From Gammaproteobacteria bacterium (GTDB taxonomy: Bacteria; Pseudomonadota; Gammaproteobacteria; GCA-001735895): a stretch of DNA of 64,000 nucleotides. Made by a program: the position numbers and the translations under genes. The DNA lies in the NCBI GenBank assembly GCA_024225395.1, contig JAAEMR010000149.1, forward strand, positions 1 through 64,000, read 5' to 3'. The notes beneath the pieces are model-generated. The model was given only the letters and a program-made list of their open reading frames with translations. It did not search any database and was not told the origin of the DNA. This document shows, in pieces, positions 40,353-54,903 of the stretch (its first letter is position 1; every line of letters starts with the position of its first letter).

Positions 40353-41759
<1,407 letters not shown>

Positions 41760-43252: not shown

Positions 43253-43780
43253 TTAATGAGCATTCACATTCACATGATCATACACAATGATATGGTCAGC
43301 CAGAATACCTTTCTTAATAACCTTTAAATCCTTCTCTGTAAACTCAATGCGGCATGGAGATGAAGAATCACAATCAAACAAAACTATATCCTCACCCGTT
43401 TTAACAGTTCCCAGATTTGCGATAACACTCTGATCCATCACATCAAATTTACCTCGAATAAAAGCATCACCCATTGATTTTTTACTGACAATATTAAAAA
43501 CTGAAGCAATCGCTTCTGGCTTAACCTTTGTTGAATAGGGGTAAGGAATAAATAATCGTATGATCCGGTTAGGCGGGTAGAATTTCATATAATGACTTTT
43601 CCCGGATAGTTGAGCCATTTTGCCATCATTTTCTTCTCTGGAGAAAAATCCTGAATAAAAAAGTACTGTACCTTCAGACTGTACCAGTTTCTGCTCTTCA
43701 ATTGCATGGGAAATACCTGACACTGACAGGGTTAGTGCAATGGTTATGAAAATGGCAAGGAAATTATGATTAAAAAACAT
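43253..43780 (-). CDS. Hypothetical secreted protein
   Basis: 175 aa with signal peptide; no family recognised. Confidence 0.55.
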   Translation of the reverse strand: MFFNHNFLAIFITIALTLSVSGISHAIEEQKLVQSEGTVLFYSGFFSREENDGKMAQLSGKSHYMKFYPPNRIIRLFIPYPYSTKVKPEAIASVFNIVSKKSMGDAFIRGKFDVMDQSVIANLGTVKTGEDIVLFDCDSSSPCRIEFTEKDLKVIKKGILADHIIVYDHVNVNAH

Positions 43781-45613: not shown

Positions 45614-46234
45614 ATGTCTAAACAAAGTCTATCCATATTACTGGCAGTCCTGTTCATCACAGGGTCAGCAGCCTATGTCAGTTACCATTTTTTCACCACT
45701 GAACAAACCCCAACTGAACTTATAGCTGTACTCAGGGCAGTTCCTAAACAGTTACAGGAATTTAAGCTAATCGACCAAAACAGAAATTCTTTCACTTTGG
45801 GGCATTTGAAAAACGCCAATACATTACTATTTTTTGGTTACACATCATGTCCCGATATCTGCCCAACAACTTTGACGATTTTAAACCAGCTGTATAATCA
45901 ACTTAACAAAAGCAAACCTTCAGAAAGCTACAACATCGTCTTTGTATCAGTCGATCCGCAAAGAGATACGACAGAAAAACTTTCTGAATATATGAATTAT
46001 TTCAATCAGGATTTTTTAGCTGTTACAGGCACTAAAACAGAAATAGACCAATTTGCGCGTCAATTTGGAGCCGGTTATGTCATTGATGGAGATGTATCCG
46101 GAGATAATTACCTGGTTAGCCATACCAGTTCAATTTTCCTGATAAATTCCCAGCAAAAATTTATAGCTTCATTTTCTCCTCCACACCATGCTGAGATTAT
46201 TGCATCACAATTGCAGTTAATTGAAAAACTCTAA
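45614..46234 (+). CDS. SCO1/SenC family copper chaperone
   Basis: FFGYTSCPDICPTTLTILNQLYNQL...VFVSVDPQRDTTEKLSEYMNYF. Confidence 0.93.
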   Translation: MSKQSLSILLAVLFITGSAAYVSYHFFTTEQTPTELIAVLRAVPKQLQEFKLIDQNRNSFTLGHLKNANTLLFFGYTSCPDICPTTLTILNQLYNQLNKSKPSESYNIVFVSVDPQRDTTEKLSEYMNYFNQDFLAVTGTKTEIDQFARQFGAGYVIDGDVSGDNYLVSHTSSIFLINSQQKFIASFSPPHHAEIIASQLQLIEKL

Positions 46235-46244
46235 ATAACTACAG

Positions 46245-46676
46245 ATGGATATAATTTCTACGCTTCCGGCCGTTGAGGCCATACTCAATTCCATATCAGC
46301 AACACTGGTTACTACTGGCTATTATTTTATCCATAAGAATAATATTCCAGCCCATCAAATATGCATGAAGAGCGCTCTGTTTACGTCCACAATTTTTGCT
46401 GTTGTTTACCTTATTTACCATTTAAATATTGGTAATATTCCTTTTGCAGGACAAGGTTATATACGCCCGATTTATTTTTTGATCCTGATATCACATGTAA
46501 TTTTGGCTATAACAACCGTTGTTCTGGTGCTAACAACAGTTTACATGATCATTAAAGGTGAAACAGATAAACATAAAAAAATTGCTCGCTGGACTGTACC
46601 TGTCTGGCTTTATGTTTCAGTCACCGGGGTAATTATATATTTGTTGGCATTTCATTTTTATCCGCCAACAGATTAA
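46245..46676 (+). CDS. DUF420 family membrane protein (oxidase-associated)
   Basis: LPAVEAILNSISATLVTTGYYFIHKNNIPAHQICMKSA; 4 TM. Confidence 0.85.
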   Translation: MDIISTLPAVEAILNSISATLVTTGYYFIHKNNIPAHQICMKSALFTSTIFAVVYLIYHLNIGNIPFAGQGYIRPIYFLILISHVILAITTVVLVLTTVYMIIKGETDKHKKIARWTVPVWLYVSVTGVIIYLLAFHFYPPTD

Positions 46677-47005: not shown

Positions 47006-48481
47006 CTAATCTCTGGTTCTGGCAGACATCATCGATTTATAAACAATAATTAGAAAAATTATCCCGCCAATAATGGCAATCCCTGCACCCACTCCTACAA
47101 TTCGCATACCAATAACCTTTTCCATCGTATCCAGTCCCTGAGCAGCTCCAGCTGTTTTACGTTGTACACCATGCCCACCCGACCAGGCAAGTCCACCAAT
47201 ATGAATAAGTTGCCCTACCCCGTACAAGACAGGCTGCCACCTGACCATCTTTCCAGTCGGTTTTTTGAATCCCAGACGTGGCAATAAATGATATGTAATA
47301 CCCATAAAAGCAAGTGTAATCGCGGTGATCGATCCATGATAATGAGCAGGTACAATAGTATTACTACCGCTAATCATAAAACCAATAACCCCGCCAGCAG
47401 CAAACAGCAGAAATGAAAATATTAATGCATTTCGTTCACCACTAGCTTGTGGAAATCCAGAACTGTTAGTAAACAAGCTATAAATAATAGCCAGGCCTAT
47501 GGGCAAAGCCGCCAAACCACCGCCATACTGCATTAACCAGGTAATTGCTTGCAGATGATTTCCAGAAGAAACATCAAACATCAGGTAAACAACCGGAGTC
47601 AATAAAACCGGTAATAAGCCAATGGCAAAAACAAAAATTACGCTACGCGGTAAAATTTTCAGATCAATACCAGTGATTACCGCCAGGCACAGCCACACAA
47701 CCAAAACGAGTTGCACATGAACAAATTGAAGTGTGTGACCACTCCCCCAGAACAATAATTCAAAATAGTATGCACCCTGTGCATGTTCAGGTATACCAAC
47801 CCAGGAGGCAATCAGAGCCATTAGAGAAACCAGTGCAGCTACTAAAGCGGTATATAACCCAAAACGAATAGCCCCACCACCACTCGAACTTTGACCTACC
47901 GGGTTAGAGAAAAATAACCCGCGTATAACCAGAACAGTGAATCCCAAACCAAAAATACCCAGACCGACAAAAAAGACGGGGTTCTGAAGTACCGGAACAT
48001 AGTTATTCATGAAAGGGTTTGCTGCTCCCAGAAAAGGGGATACAGCAAAAACCAGAGTCCCCACAACTGCCAGCCAAAGTCCGACCCATCCACATAAGAT
48101 ACAGCGTTTAGTACTATTTAAACTCCAGAATAAACCGGCAAACCCCAGAAACCACGTCAAAACTGTTAAATCGACATGTACTACCAATGCAGTGTGAAAG
48201 AAATCCGTCCAGGGGAAAAATTCTTTGGTGTAGGGTACGCGAGAGAGGACCACCAGAATGGTAAAAATACCTGCCACAACCATAGAGCCAACAGCTAGTA
48301 ATAACCAACCTATGCTGATTTTTCTATTTGACTCGTCCTGAGGAATGTTTAGAGAAAATCCCTCTACGGTCTCGTTAATGTCACTCATGGTTTTTTCCTG
48401 AATAGAAATGAAGCTAAAAAATGCGGGGAAGTTATGCTTAAATATTGGCTCTGTCAACCGCCAATAATATGCCTGGGACAA
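47006..48481 (-). CDS. Noncanonical heme-copper oxidase subunit I-like protein
   Basis: VVHVDLTVLTWFLGFAGLFW, FWGSGHTLQFVHVQ, PAHYHGSITAITLAFMGITYHLLP; helix VII region lacks HH. Real start probably MSDINETVEG near 48388. Confidence 0.75.
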   Translation of the reverse strand: MSQAYYWRLTEPIFKHNFPAFFSFISIQEKTMSDINETVEGFSLNIPQDESNRKISIGWLLLAVGSMVVAGIFTILVVLSRVPYTKEFFPWTDFFHTALVVHVDLTVLTWFLGFAGLFWSLNSTKRCILCGWVGLWLAVVGTLVFAVSPFLGAANPFMNNYVPVLQNPVFFVGLGIFGLGFTVLVIRGLFFSNPVGQSSSGGGAIRFGLYTALVAALVSLMALIASWVGIPEHAQGAYYFELLFWGSGHTLQFVHVQLVLVVWLCLAVITGIDLKILPRSVIFVFAIGLLPVLLTPVVYLMFDVSSGNHLQAITWLMQYGGGLAALPIGLAIIYSLFTNSSGFPQASGERNALIFSFLLFAAGGVIGFMISGSNTIVPAHYHGSITAITLAFMGITYHLLPRLGFKKPTGKMVRWQPVLYGVGQLIHIGGLAWSGGHGVQRKTAGAAQGLDTMEKVIGMRIVGVGAGIAIIGGIIFLIIVYKSMMSARTRD

Positions 48482-48589
48482 CCCGGGCCATCAACCATAA
48501 CAATCCGGCTCTTTTGATTCACACCAAACTGCCAGTAACAGGCTAAGGACAACCCAGGGCATCAACCTGCGTATGATTCAAATTCCATC

Positions 48590-49093
48590 TTATTTTACTA
48601 TGAAGCCACCTTCTCCAGAATCAAACTGAATAATTAAATGCTGTTCAGGTTTAATAACAATATCCTGTTCATGCTGATAGATAGGACCTTCGACTTTCAC
48701 GTCATCATTTAACCAGGTTTTCATCCGATGTTTACCCGCTGGTATTTTTATATTCTGGTATATATCAATACCCTGATCTTTGTATAAACCGAGTGGTTGA
48801 GCAGAATGACTAAAAATCACTTCATCATTTATCTGTAATTCCATAACCACGGGGGAACGCTCACGAGGACAGTCCATAGGTTTACGCATATTGGGAGGCA
48901 ACTTCATCAATTCATCGTAGGACATCTTTTTACACTCAGTGACATGTTTACCCACATGACTCATGGTATAGGTAATTAATGCCTGGTTTTCTTCCAGCTG
49001 ATGATAGGGGGGTAAAATAGAAAAATACCAGACCAGTCCCATAAATATCGAATAATTTAAGATCTGTAGAGGATATCGAATTATTTTATTCAT
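48590..49093 (-). CDS. Hypothetical membrane-anchored protein in the oxidase cluster
   Basis: 167 aa, N-terminal TM; abuts the cytochrome b fusion gene. Confidence 0.6.
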   Translation of the reverse strand: MNKIIRYPLQILNYSIFMGLVWYFSILPPYHQLEENQALITYTMSHVGKHVTECKKMSYDELMKLPPNMRKPMDCPRERSPVVMELQINDEVIFSHSAQPLGLYKDQGIDIYQNIKIPAGKHRMKTWLNDDVKVEGPIYQHEQDIVIKPEQHLIIQFDSGEGGFIVK

Positions 49094-50662
49094 CTATTCC
49101 TCCCCTTTTTTACTTTCAAGTGATTCATTGTCTTTCTGCATACTGGAAAGCTTTTGCTGAAAACGATCGAGTTCAGATCTAAGTTCCTTACACTCTGTTT
49201 CTACTGCACGGAATATGTTTATCCTGGCACGTTCAGCACGTTTTCGTAGAATAGGTTTTCGACTCCCATCGAAACGTTCATCCATCCACTGATTGCCATG
49301 ACGAAAATAACAATCACCTGTTCGACACCCGGTTATAAAAACACCATCAGCACCTTTTTTCAATGCATATTCAACCATTGTTGGCGGGATCATGCCGACG
49401 CAATAATATTTGATAATACCTATATTGGATGACTCAAGCCCTTTAAAATCGAGCGCGTTATCACAACCAAAAACAATAATCTTATTATCACTGTCTGAGC
49501 TGCTTTTATTGATTCTCTCTATTTCAGCATCTACCTGGTCTCGTACATCATTTATAGGAGAATTGGGCATATCTATGCCAGTTATCAAAGACTTCTCGCT
49601 ATGGCGAAAAGGGTTTGAAGAGGGGCAGGATCCGACGCAGATGCCACAGGAAGCACAAAGATTATCATGCACAACCACTTCATTTTCCCATCGAGCACCA
49701 TCCGTTCTTTTTTGTACGGTAATAGCATCGAAAGGACAATCTTTGGCACACTGCTCACAACCGTTACAATGATCAAGGAATACCTTGGCAACTTCATCCT
49801 GTTTTTTCTTTGGCAGCCATGGCATTAACATTAAAAAAACGGTGATGCCAATAGTTAGTAACCATACTTGCCCTGCTGTCAAGTAATCAAGCAAGGGATA
49901 GATATTCAAATAAAACCAGTCAATATTTAATATGGCAGGAGTTTGCGTCACATCGGCGGGATCATGACTGACTGCGGGTGCAATCAATGAAAGAATCACC
50001 AGAGCCATAAAAGTACCTATTGCTAAACCTCTTGGAGCCATTATTGAGACCCCTGATAAACGCTTAACATGAAACCAGAGAGCAAACACCAGAATAACAG
50101 GTTGACCTAACAGGTGTAAAAATGCCATTAAAGTAAAAAAACGGTCATTTATCTGCTCAGCCAAAAAATTTCGCGACATAGTTCCTGGTAACAATGGCAA
50201 ACCATCCATTAACTGCGAGGATAAAATCGCCACATATAATGCCAGCTCATCCCAGACTAACCAGTAACCTGTAATACCAAGCGTAACAACAAGCCATAAA
50301 GTTGGTACACCTGTAACCCAGGAAAACCAGCGAAAACCCCGATAACGATCTAACGAAAATTCTCTAAACATATGCAGAAAAATTGTAATTATTGCTGCAT
50401 CTGATGCGTATCTATGCAAGCTACGCATGACGCCGGCTGCATACCATTGCTCATTCGTCATGTACTCTACAGAATTATAAGCCCCCATCAGAGTCGAATC
50501 GAAAAAGATGAACAGGTAGAGCCCGCTAACAAGAATAATCCAGAAGAAAAAAAATGTTAGCGTCCCCAGGTTATATAGCGGGTTCCATTGATGTCCGAAA
50601 GAAATATTGAACCAGGTTTCAAGCGCAAGATAACCGCGCTTAACTGGGTTAATGTAACTCAT
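49094..50662 (-). CDS. Fusion protein: cytochrome b domain + 2x[4Fe-4S] ferredoxin + MvhD-type iron-sulfur domain
   Basis: 522 aa; cyt b LHRYASDAAIITIFLHMFREF; CNGCEQCAKDCP and CASCGICVGSCP; GVFITGCRTGDCYFRHGNQWMDER. Confidence 0.85.
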   Translation of the reverse strand: MSYINPVKRGYLALETWFNISFGHQWNPLYNLGTLTFFFFWIILVSGLYLFIFFDSTLMGAYNSVEYMTNEQWYAAGVMRSLHRYASDAAIITIFLHMFREFSLDRYRGFRWFSWVTGVPTLWLVVTLGITGYWLVWDELALYVAILSSQLMDGLPLLPGTMSRNFLAEQINDRFFTLMAFLHLLGQPVILVFALWFHVKRLSGVSIMAPRGLAIGTFMALVILSLIAPAVSHDPADVTQTPAILNIDWFYLNIYPLLDYLTAGQVWLLTIGITVFLMLMPWLPKKKQDEVAKVFLDHCNGCEQCAKDCPFDAITVQKRTDGARWENEVVVHDNLCASCGICVGSCPSSNPFRHSEKSLITGIDMPNSPINDVRDQVDAEIERINKSSSDSDNKIIVFGCDNALDFKGLESSNIGIIKYYCVGMIPPTMVEYALKKGADGVFITGCRTGDCYFRHGNQWMDERFDGSRKPILRKRAERARINIFRAVETECKELRSELDRFQQKLSSMQKDNESLESKKGEE

Positions 50663-50763: not shown

Positions 50764-51627
50764 TCAAGCATTTCGTTGGCGTTTTGCAAAACGCAATTCA
50801 TTAATAATGAACAGCAGTGTAAGAATAATAATTAAACCTCCAATTATCATTCCAATAAATAATGAATAGTCAAAACGATATGAATCCGATCTGGGGTCAT
50901 AGGTCGTACAAAAGAAACGTACCTTATCAACCATATTTGTTAAAAAAGATTGATTGCTCTTAGGTCGATCCAGCACAAGATCTATTAAAGGCTCAATTAG
51001 TAATTGAGTATCAAATGTTTCACCGTATACCTGACGATAAATCTGTCCTTTTTCATCAACAACAGTTGCCTGGACAACGTGATCAAAACCATTTGGTGAG
51101 GTGAAATACTGAAAACCCAGTTCCTTTGATAAAGATGTAACCGTATCAGAATCGACACTTAAAGCATGCCAGCCCTTTTTATCTACACCCTGTTTCTCAG
51201 CAAAATATTTCATTTTTTGTGGTGTATCGAACTGTGTATCAAAACCAATGACAACAACCGAAAAACTGTCTTCGCCCAATGTTTCTCGTGCTTTATCCAC
51301 TACCTGAGAAAGATGGCGTATGGTCATAGGACAAATTTGATAACAACTGGTATATACCATGCTTATAACCAATGGTTTACCAAGGAAATCATGCATAGTC
51401 ATGCCCTTGCCATTCGCATCCGTAAAACGGTGTTTACTTAATACCTGGTCAATTGCATCCTGACTGGCCTGCAATGCTGACTTATATTGAAACTGCTGAA
51501 TGACTTTACCCGGTTGGCTATCAACAGTCTGGCTTTGCGCATGAAGTCCATGAACAAAAAACAACAGCGAAACAAACAGCGACAGCGAAAGTTTTAAATA
51601 TAAGTCAGATTGGTTTTTCGTGTTCAT
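50764..51627 (-). CDS. SCO family protein with C-terminal TM
   Basis: VISMVYTSCYQICPMTIRHLSQVV...VVIGFDTQFDTPQKMKYFAEKQ. Confidence 0.9.
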   Translation of the reverse strand: MNTKNQSDLYLKLSLSLFVSLLFFVHGLHAQSQTVDSQPGKVIQQFQYKSALQASQDAIDQVLSKHRFTDANGKGMTMHDFLGKPLVISMVYTSCYQICPMTIRHLSQVVDKARETLGEDSFSVVVIGFDTQFDTPQKMKYFAEKQGVDKKGWHALSVDSDTVTSLSKELGFQYFTSPNGFDHVVQATVVDEKGQIYRQVYGETFDTQLLIEPLIDLVLDRPKSNQSFLTNMVDKVRFFCTTYDPRSDSYRFDYSLFIGMIIGGLIIILTLLFIINELRFAKRQRNA

Positions 51628-51636
51628 TGCGCTTCC

Positions 51637-52494
51637 TTAAAAAGAAACATCAAGTACAGCAAACACCAGTAATAAAGCTAATTGAATTAATGAAGCAAAG
51701 AAGCTTTTCATTGCCATCTTAGTGCTAGGCTCTCTCGCTAATAGTACACTACGATAAATAAAGTATGCACCACCCGATAAAGCACCCAGCAGATAAAGAA
51801 AACCTAACCCATAAAAAAATGGGAGTACTGAAACAGAAACCAGAAGAATGGTATTCCACATAACAGCCCTTGCTGCCGCTCTGTCACCTTTCACCACCGG
51901 TAACATGGGAATACCTGCTGCTGCGTAATCTTTGTGTTGTGCTATCGCTAAACTCCAGAAATGGGGTGGTGTCCACAGAAATAACACCATAGCGAATGCC
52001 AGCGGAATTGGCCCTAAGTTAGGATCGACAACAGCAGCACCCGCTAAAACAGCAAAACTTCCAGAAGCACCACCGATAATAATATTAGTCCAGGTACGAC
52101 GTTTTAACCAGACGGTATAAACGATTGCATAAAAAAAGGCACCCAGAAAAATAAACAATGCACTGAGACCATTAAGCAGAAATCCTGCCGTTCCGACACC
52201 TACTATTAGTAAACCAAAAATTATCAATAACCAGACAGGGTTACCACTGGAAAAACGACCGGTTACAAAAGGACGATTTTCCGTACGCTTCATTAGCTTG
52301 TCATAATCGCGCTCGTAATACTGGTTAAAAGCACCCGCACTTCCTGAAGCCATTAATACAGTAACCGCTAACAGGGCTGCTTGCCAAACGCTGACCGACT
52401 GCCCTGGTGTAATGATAAGAGCAACCAGCGCTGTAATCGCCATAATGACACCAATACGGAGTTTGAACAGATTGATGAGTTGATTGATCATTAT
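51637..52494 (-). CDS. cyoE: Protoheme IX farnesyltransferase (heme O synthase)
   Basis: ASGSAGAFNQYYERDYDKLMKRTENRPF, LFLWTPPHFWSLAI; start estimated at MINQLINLFKLRIG. Confidence 0.93.
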   Translation of the reverse strand: MMINQLINLFKLRIGVIMAITALVALIITPGQSVSVWQAALLAVTVLMASGSAGAFNQYYERDYDKLMKRTENRPFVTGRFSSGNPVWLLIIFGLLIVGVGTAGFLLNGLSALFIFLGAFFYAIVYTVWLKRRTWTNIIIGGASGSFAVLAGAAVVDPNLGPIPLAFAMVLFLWTPPHFWSLAIAQHKDYAAAGIPMLPVVKGDRAAARAVMWNTILLVSVSVLPFFYGLGFLYLLGALSGGAYFIYRSVLLAREPSTKMAMKSFFASLIQLALLLVFAVLDVSF

Positions 52495-52590
52495 TATCTT
52501 ATCGTGATAGCTCTTTGAAAGAATAACTGGATTGTACTCTATTACTGTAAACAAGTTATAGAATAATCCATTGGGGAAAATATGGATAAA

Positions 52591-52630: not shown

Positions 52631-54361
52631 TTAGCTCATAGGCCAGACAGAAGACAGGTATTTCCAGTTGATGAAGTAGTACACCACGAAGGAAACCAGT
52701 AACAATAGTGCAAGCACAAAGGTACCCGGGGCTTCAAAGCCTTTACCATGATGCTCTTCAGCAGGTGCAGCTCTTTCAAGCTTTTCTGGCTTACTAACGC
52801 TATAAACAGATGAAGCCAGCGGTAATCCTGCGAAGCATTGCAGTATTCCAGCCGAAGGTTCAAGCTTTTTACCGAACAGCAATGAACCGACTGTAACAAG
52901 CAGATAGGCACCACCACCGAGCACACCGAGAACACCGCCAATAGCACCTATAGCCATTAAGGTGTAAGCCATACCAGGGTATTCAAAGGTCAACAGCGCA
53001 CCTGTAAAGTCCATATCCCAGTGACGACGTGATACTCCCAGTGTTCCTGCACCTAACATAAACAGGATCAGGATAGTCATACCACCACCAAATAGATAGG
53101 GTTGTATCTTGGCCAACCCAGGAAGGAAAAGCTGACGTCTGAACAATACTGGAATAAGCAAATATGTCAGAGCCATAAAGGCTAATGTTGTACCTGTAAC
53201 AACAGTTGCATGGAAATGAGCCGGTACATAAATAGTATTATGGATAATCAGGTTGATCTGCTCTGTACCCATTACAACACCCGTAATACCACCCAGGAAT
53301 CCAAATGTTACCAACGAAATAAACATGCCGGAAAATACAGGATTGCCCCATGGCGCTTTACGTAACCATTCAAACATACCATTGGTATAACCTTTGCTGC
53401 GTTGAGCAACTTCCATGGCACCTGGAACGGTTAATCCATGAATCATACTGGCTAATACTGCCAGGTACATCGCATAGGATGTATTGAAAATTTTCCATTC
53501 TGTACCCATGCCTGGATCTACCAGAATATGATGCGCACTAGCTAGTTGCAGGAACAGGATATACAGCAGGAATGCAAAACGACTGACTTTCTCAGACATT
53601 GGTCGCGCACCAAACAGAACACCTGTCAGTAAATACCAGATTGATACATGAGCTGCCACATTAATTTGCTGAGAAGAGTGACCCATTCCCCACCAGATAA
53701 CACGATACATTTCAGCATCGATATGGCTGATGTAACCCACAGACCATAGAAAAGTAGGCACCAGGATAATCGCACCGGATGCAATAGTGAATACTGCTAT
53801 GATAGCTGCTGTAATTGCACCAAATGTTACCAGTGGAACGGAACCATCATAGGTATTTTCCTGTTGTGCGACGACAAGTGTTCCAAAAAACACAAACACC
53901 TGAATCAATGCACCAACAGCAAACAGAATCAGTCCCAGATAAAAATGAGGCGCAGCCTGCATCGGTACATAAGACGTCATCATGACACTGGAGTTACCCT
54001 GAAAAACAGCGACATTATTCATCACCGCTCCAACAATCATCAAGAAGAAACCAAACCAGGCCCAACGAGGCGTAGCCAGTCTACATCTTAATAATGTAGT
54101 GGAAGCAAAATGCAAAATGGCCATTTCAAAAAAGATTATCCAGAAAATCAGTGCGTTGATACCATGACCTGTCAGGGCTTGATAAAACTGGTCAGCCGGA
54201 AGCAGGTGCACTTCCTGCCAGCGAGTTAATACAACACCAAGACCAAGAAGACCCGCGACTAACAGAGCAACCACTCCGGCAACCGCGTTGACTTTCATCA
54301 AACTTTCGGCAGGTTTGTTAAAATAAAATCCCGAATCGGGACAGATACGAAAAGATGACAT
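52631..54361 (-). CDS. Heme-copper oxidase/NOR-like subunit I
   Basis: 576 aa; ALTGHGI, WWGMGHSSQQINVAAHVSIW, LASAHHILVDPG, YVPAHFHATVVTGTTLAFMALTY. Confidence 0.88.
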   Translation of the reverse strand: MSSFRICPDSGFYFNKPAESLMKVNAVAGVVALLVAGLLGLGVVLTRWQEVHLLPADQFYQALTGHGINALIFWIIFFEMAILHFASTTLLRCRLATPRWAWFGFFLMIVGAVMNNVAVFQGNSSVMMTSYVPMQAAPHFYLGLILFAVGALIQVFVFFGTLVVAQQENTYDGSVPLVTFGAITAAIIAVFTIASGAIILVPTFLWSVGYISHIDAEMYRVIWWGMGHSSQQINVAAHVSIWYLLTGVLFGARPMSEKVSRFAFLLYILFLQLASAHHILVDPGMGTEWKIFNTSYAMYLAVLASMIHGLTVPGAMEVAQRSKGYTNGMFEWLRKAPWGNPVFSGMFISLVTFGFLGGITGVVMGTEQINLIIHNTIYVPAHFHATVVTGTTLAFMALTYLLIPVLFRRQLFLPGLAKIQPYLFGGGMTILILFMLGAGTLGVSRRHWDMDFTGALLTFEYPGMAYTLMAIGAIGGVLGVLGGGAYLLVTVGSLLFGKKLEPSAGILQCFAGLPLASSVYSVSKPEKLERAAPAEEHHGKGFEAPGTFVLALLLLVSFVVYYFINWKYLSSVWPMS

Positions 54362-54363
54362 TC

Positions 54364-54903
54364 TTAATTCTCCTTCACGTAGATCTTGCCCACCATTGTA
54401 TGGTGACCAATTCCACAGTATTCATTACATATTACGCCAAACTCACCAGTGGTATCCGGGGTCATTGTAGAGACCATTTCATATCCTGGTACAATTTGCA
54501 GATTTATATTAAGAGGCTGAAGTGAGAAACCATGCTGCCAATCCATCGATGACAGGTGGATACGGTAATCTTTATCCTTCTCCAGCTCAAGAATGGGATA
54601 CCATTGCCACAGGCGACCCAGCATGTAAACATCACTGCCAGCAGGTGGACGAACGATTGGAATCCCAGCTTCTTCACCAACTTTATATTTTTCAACCATT
54701 TCTTCGACTTTTGCACCAAATTTGGCTGGTGTAGTTTGATAAGCTTCGGTTGAAAGGTTCTGTTTACCGTAAACATGCCAGATAGGCATCATCAGGAACA
54801 TAATCAGACACCATGTCAAAGCAATGGCAATCCAGATAATCTCCTGTTTTCCGACGGGAACCTTCCACCATATTTTCTCAGCAGGTGGTAAAAATGAACT
54901 CAT
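54364..54903 (-). CDS. Cytochrome c oxidase subunit II-like protein with CuA site
   Basis: 179 aa; CNEYCGIGHHTMVGKIYV. Confidence 0.9.
   Translation of the reverse strand: MSSFLPPAEKIWWKVPVGKQEIIWIAIALTWCLIMFLMMPIWHVYGKQNLSTEAYQTTPAKFGAKVEEMVEKYKVGEEAGIPIVRPPAGSDVYMLGRLWQWYPILELEKDKDYRIHLSSMDWQHGFSLQPLNINLQIVPGYEMVSTMTPDTTGEFGVICNEYCGIGHHTMVGKIYVKEN

Follow-up and report, generated by a model that had tools for sequence, protein, structure and literature searches.

The protein encoded at 47006-48388 on the minus strand of a 64,000-nucleotide stretch of gammaproteobacterial DNA (contig JAAEMR010000149.1; the whole stretch is called the window here) has, judging from its homology and predicted structure, the fold of a heme-copper oxidase (HCO) subunit I, and in the alignment two of the three CuB ligands are lost across its whole family. 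HCO subunit I is a catalytic protein defined by its haem-copper centre. We use the label FAM for this CuB-less HCO-like protein together with its relatives, and the explanation that we favour, to which we would give a little less than an even chance, is that FAM could be a paralogue of the B-family/sNOR subunit I that lost CuB and serves haem and oxidase biogenesis as a di-haem accessory protein. FAM is predicted to bind two haems and no copper, would reduce neither O2 nor NO, and presumably helps other haem proteins to mature. The family is apparently undescribed so far, as no CuB-less subunit-I family is mentioned in PMC9145763, in PMC8239418 or in what targeted literature searches, largely limited to open-access papers, returned.

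The open reading frame listed for the window spans 47006-48481 on the minus strand. Judging from the alignment, translation most likely begins at the ATG at 48388 (MSDINETVEG...) and not at the TTG at 48481; a relative with 94% identity aligns with residues 1-460 counted from this ATG, and because relatives begin there, the gene is probably 47006-48388 and encodes 460 residues. The gene and its principal residues, with their conservation in an alignment of 159 distinct family sequences (window protein included), are as follows.

47006-48388, minus strand: FAM, putative CuB-less HCO-like protein, 460 residues, 12 transmembrane helices (PF00115, profile, AlphaFold2, Foldseek)
48176-48178, minus strand: H71, helix II, putative low-spin haem ligand, in 158 of 159, aligned to the helix-II His of ba3
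47735-47737, minus strand: H218, helix VI, only CuB-ligand position that is kept, in 159 of 159
47726-47728, minus strand: Q221, after H218, in 159 of 159
47585-47590, minus strand: V267-Y268, place of the missing helix-VII HH pair, never HH in the 159
47336-47344, minus strand: H349-Y350-H351, helix X, putative high-spin and low-spin haem ligands, H349 and H351 in 159 of 159

Both the homology to PF00115 and the 12-helix subunit-I fold place FAM in the HCO superfamily. The match to PF00115 (Pfam COX1) scores 43.3 bits against a curated cut-off of 34.8, and none of the NCBIfam models matches the protein. The AlphaFold2 model, which is a model without cofactors, has a mean pLDDT of 89, is mostly helical and fits 12 membrane helices, and an earlier model (pLDDT 77) matched a ba3 oxidase in Foldseek with a probability of 1.00 and a TM score of 0.70. 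A profile of 33 family members found ba3 oxidases in the PDB (E ~1e-8); no solved structure was matched by the single sequence or by a profile of 11 rows. A promoter scan inside and around the gene gave a result no higher than chance. The 200-base gap before the gene holds two direct copies of 41 bases (48456-48496 and 48527-48567) that are 78% alike, the core of which is absent elsewhere in the genome and has one weaker copy in the nearest relative; they may be a regulatory site. In the loop after helix II there is a CXXC (residues 96-99, 48092-48103, minus strand), a possible metal or redox site that about one family member in three has (60 and 55 of 159 sequences).

The motifs VVHVD (H71), GSGHTLQF (H218) and PAHYH (H349 and H351), as well as the segment VVYLMFDVSSGNHLQAITW equivalent to the HH region, had been quoted in an earlier sequence-only reading of this DNA, and all of them are present in the window protein. 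The absence of the helix-VII pair that it had proposed was confirmed by the alignment with the 52631-54361 protein (NorY), in which H277/H278 of NorY ('SAHHILVDPG') falls on V267/Y268. The alignment with Thermus ba3 is shifted in register by a few residues near this pair and likewise has no His there; in the alignment to the PDB ba3 structures, H71, H218, H349 and H351 coincide with the histidines that bind the haems and CuB in helices II, VI and X. Across the 159 sequences, the HH position is taken by IY (81), VY (11), IH (11), LH (9), AY (7) or less frequent pairs, and in none of them by HH; when residues 250-305 were scanned, an HH dipeptide appeared in six members at about 277-280, off the ligand position and not conserved. 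FAM has the bis-His site of a low-spin haem (H71/H351) and the proximal His of a second, high-spin haem (H349), and it has H218 only of the three-His second-metal site of a catalytic HCO or NOR subunit I. H218, Q221, H349, H351, W214 and W232 are invariant, M286 is found in 157 of the 159, and R410 and K411, an Arg/Lys pair where the haem-propionate arginines sit, in 158. FAM is under purifying selection, with dN 0.030, dS 0.302 and dN/dS ~0.1 against its nearest relative among the matches listed, and because the loss of CuB ligands is family-wide and accompanied by this selection, it is not attributable to chance or decay. The earlier suggestion of a heme-only protein is supported by these sequences, in which the haem ligands are conserved and two of the three CuB ligands are gone.

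The minus-strand order in the window is NorS, NorY, CtaB, SenC, a cytochrome b/ferredoxin fusion, a 167-aa ORF and, last, FAM. These genes, and two on the opposite strand at the downstream side of FAM, are the following.

54364-54903, minus strand: NorS-like subunit II with a CuA domain (COX2 of Pfam, CoxB of NCBIfam)
52631-54361, minus strand: NorY-like subunit I of sNOR type (B family), HH pair intact (H277/H278; PF00115, 205 bits)
51637-52554, minus strand: CtaB-like putative haem O synthase, an ORF named by sequence resemblance, start codon uncertain
50764-51627, minus strand: SCO1/SenC copper chaperone (Pfam)
49094-50662, minus strand: cytochrome b / 2x[4Fe-4S] / FlpD fusion (Pfam)
48590-49093, minus strand: 167-aa membrane-anchored conserved protein, no Pfam family
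46245-46676, plus strand: DUF420 protein (CtaM-like, oxidase biogenesis; E 7e-39)
45614-46234, plus strand: second SCO1/SenC protein (E 6e-39)

The window holds an sNOR-like gene cluster, NorS-NorY-SenC with accessory genes, and its NorY matches ba3-family oxidases with E values down to 3e-43. The NorS-NorY-SenC order is that of norSY-senC-orf1, which has been proposed as the sNOR of ammonia oxidisers (PMC4940428) and the role of which is disputed between NO reductase and high-affinity oxidase (PMC6967387). Among the named loci, which are the best 80 of at least 536 FAM relatives and include close relatives, the full order from NorS to FAM is found in about 50, the 167-aa protein in 51 and a CtaB-like homologue in 43. 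Some of the neighbours deserve a description of their own. The 167-aa protein has no convincing NCBIfam match, conserves His46, Cys54 and Cys75 in 44 sequences and is found in NorSY clusters even without FAM, being a candidate accessory protein of sNOR; in two such clusters (L213 and L216) it is followed by hemerythrin and then by ctaA, which there stands where FAM lies in the others. The fusion, in which FlpD is a hydrogenase delta domain, recalls in its general layout the CcoG-type redox proteins of oxidase assembly. A conserved, secreted-looking protein of 175 residues with Cys137 and Cys143 (43253-43780, minus strand) lies near FAM, beside hemerythrin and Sco, in about 33 of the best 80 of at least 536 loci.

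FAM is widespread in Pseudomonadota. A scan of GTDB contigs gave at least 536 relatives among at least 585 candidates, and the best 80 of these relatives include Herbaspirillum sp. ST 5-3, Rhodocyclaceae, Acidiferrobacteraceae, Sedimenticola, Thioploca, Ca. Parabeggiatoa and the Olavius algarvensis Gamma 3 symbiont; no relatives turned up in viral contigs or plasmids. In an even draw across the class FAM was found in 46 of 369 genomes, many of which are draft or metagenome-assembled, so that the absence of a gene may be an assembly gap, and an even draw across the phylum found it in other classes too. Both FAM and NorY were present in 28 of the 369 class genomes, FAM only in 18, NorY only in 6 and neither in 317; that is, FAM occurs in 28 of 34 NorY genomes vs 18 of 335 others (Fisher p ~3e-24, without correction for kinship). 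CtaA was present in 42 of 46 FAM genomes vs 198 of 323 others (p 2e-5, phylogeny ignored).

This strong co-occurrence suggests a physical partner of NorY in that clade of FAM. The idea that FAM is a partner of the main subunit I holds to that extent, as a genomic association, but it does not cover NorY-free FAM, FAM-free NorY or a sister clade that sits in cytochrome-c maturation clusters. An obligate NorSY subunit was rejected, since 18 of 46 FAM genomes have no NorY and 6 of 34 NorY genomes have no FAM. FAM without NorSY often adjoins ctaA, ctaB or sco: in four NorY-free genomes (G357, G376, G388 and G271) it lies 83-613 bp from ctaA. In two loci (L204 and L205) FAM and ctaA share a strand and have 4 bp in common, and in another (L198) FAM comes after a DUF420 gene. 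In the case of Beggiatoa/Thioploca (L054, L058, L066 and L071) it is solitary, with no oxidase, haem or biogenesis genes within the flanks examined.

The deeper relatives (~180-400 bits) are found in clusters with ResB, CcsA (Cytochrom_C_asm) and a TPR protein, in some cases with a TlpA/ResA-type thioredoxin, and with cytochromes c of up to 11 CXXCH motifs. They retain H71, H218, Q221, H349, H351, M286, R410 and K411, and H396 is not kept. With three long-branch rows removed they form one clade (support 99), and a single second clade was not rejected by a tree test (p 0.67). Six of their loci (L194, L195, L199, L200, L201 and L207) contain a conserved 11-CXXCH cytochrome c (~810-860 aa) together with ResB, CcsA and second-clade FAM, and several have the TPR protein. 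In a first tree a support of 99 sets the whole family apart from NorY, and members with like gene contexts group together, so FAM, which has no HH, is separate from the HH-bearing NorY clade. Profile comparison links it to NorY (99.9%) and also, at 94%, to another subunit I in the same genome that resembles the B family.

A role in haem and oxidase maturation is the most economical reading because the NorSY, ctaA/ctaB/sco and ResB/CcsA contexts all share the making of haem proteins. According to this proposal, a subunit-I paralogue would have lost CuB, kept its two haem sites and turned accessory. In the window the protein to be matured would be NorSY, which has its CtaB, two Sco proteins and DUF420 encoded nearby, and in the second clade it would be the multihaem cytochrome c. 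FAM could either hold haem and pass it on in the membrane, or keep haem or copper reduced during insertion.

Besides the shared contexts, this proposal is backed by the ligand conservation, by the fold and homology to ba3, by the higher frequency of CtaA among FAM genomes and by the purifying selection. What weighs against it is that the neighbourhood fits an assembly factor, a structural subunit and a redox subunit alike, that the Beggiatoa/Thioploca members are solitary, and that the co-occurrence with NorY is high enough to hint at a physical partner in that clade. We consider it rather unlikely, at somewhat better than one chance in five, that FAM is a haem-only redox partner or structural subunit, passing electrons through its two haems to NorSY, CtaA or a multihaem cytochrome c, the last being the target in the sister clade; quinol or the cytochrome b/ferredoxin/FlpD fusion would be the electron source. 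Both haem sites are conserved, the association with NorY is strong, the fusion is encoded beside FAM in 55 of the best 80 of at least 536 loci, and second-clade FAM adjoins the 11-haem cytochrome. However, NorSY lacks FAM in 6 of 34 genomes and FAM lacks NorSY in 18 of 46, NorS already offers a CuA domain for electron entry, and no quinone site was identified in FAM.

Less probable still, at roughly one chance in seven, FAM could be a membrane gas sensor that controls assembly or expression upon binding of O2, NO or CO to a five-coordinate haem, with H218 and Q221 as its distal residues. The invariance of H218 and Q221 despite the loss of CuB is as expected of a distal pocket, several neighbours are related to NO or low O2 (SenC, hemerythrin, NirF-type proteins and Crp), and histidine kinases adjoin some sister-clade members; main-clade FAM, in contrast, has neither an output domain nor an obligate kinase or regulator as neighbour.

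The sequence-only reading had also considered a different metal centre, which gained no support here, and had ranked the protein as the most unusual enzyme candidate in the window. A catalytic enzyme active on NO or O2 with an altered second metal site, made for example of H218 with M286 or Q221, or with Tyr268, seems improbable to us, at less than one chance in ten. Near the copper site the only candidate residues are H218 and Q221, both invariant, and M286, which is almost so; Y268 could be added in the 111 of 159 sequences that have Tyr at this position. However, no conserved His, Cys, Asp or Glu stands in for the HH among the 159 sequences, the position of the cross-linking Tyr (helix VI His+4 in the B family) is Phe (F222) in 146, and the K-pathway Tyr positions 229 and 233 are Leu or other aliphatic residues, so that the cross-linked Tyr and the polar K-pathway residues of an O2 reductase are missing and the status of FAM as an enzyme is doubtful. 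A single His at 278 was rejected as an obligate replacement of the HH, since only 97 of 159 sequences have it. Finally, a degenerate subunit-I copy without function is very improbable, for in spite of the loss of two of the three CuB ligands, of broken fragments in two genomes (L039 in G001 and L037 in G036) and of a divergent, perhaps decaying copy (L159, 1592-3007, minus strand) in which H71 is Tyr and RK is YH, the selection test (dN/dS ~0.1) largely refutes it and the ligands are conserved in 159 sequences across two clades, with at least 536 relatives among the matches listed.

If the proposed accessory role is correct, a large conserved family with both haem sites and no copper would show that the subunit-I scaffold has been re-used for a non-catalytic task. 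DUF420/CtaM, Sco, Surf1, CtaA and CtaG are assembly proteins and more are expected (PMC9145763, PMC8239418), a 2022 review stating that further bacterial assembly factors are still to be found (PMC9145763); FAM would be a candidate for them. Furthermore, annotation based on PF00115 would score FAM as an oxidase or NO reductase, and it should be left out of oxidase and denitrification genome surveys.

Among known systems, NorY shares with FAM the fold, the haem ligands, the helix-VI GH..Q motif and the gene cluster, but FAM is ~27-31% identical to it, has no HH, and ahead of helix X has a loop that is shorter by ~8 residues and lacks the His found there in NorY. The ba3 subunit I (PDB 1xme, 3s8f and 4g7r) is the best solved relative by profile and fold (TM 0.70), from which FAM differs in missing the CuB HH, the cross-linking Tyr and the K-pathway Tyr. 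The cNOR subunit NorB of the window (40353-41747) belongs to the same superfamily and, unlike FAM, retains the HH ('GHHFYW'); no profile match of FAM to NorB as a single sequence was obtained. NO dismutase-type qNORs, in which the ligands of the non-haem metal are altered, are also HCO superfamily members. NnrS, a polytopic haem protein of NO-related bacteria and a haem-copper membrane protein of NO stress, has a helix-X pattern that suggested kinship (PF05940), which was rejected (hhalign probability 0.8%); the source genome has two NnrS genes separate from FAM. A kinship with CtaA/Cox15 (PF02628) was equally rejected (hhalign probability 1.8%), and DUF420/CtaM, Surf1 and Sco belong to Pfam families other than that of FAM. 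All four are nevertheless gene neighbours of FAM, and the role that we propose for it would be of the same kind as theirs.
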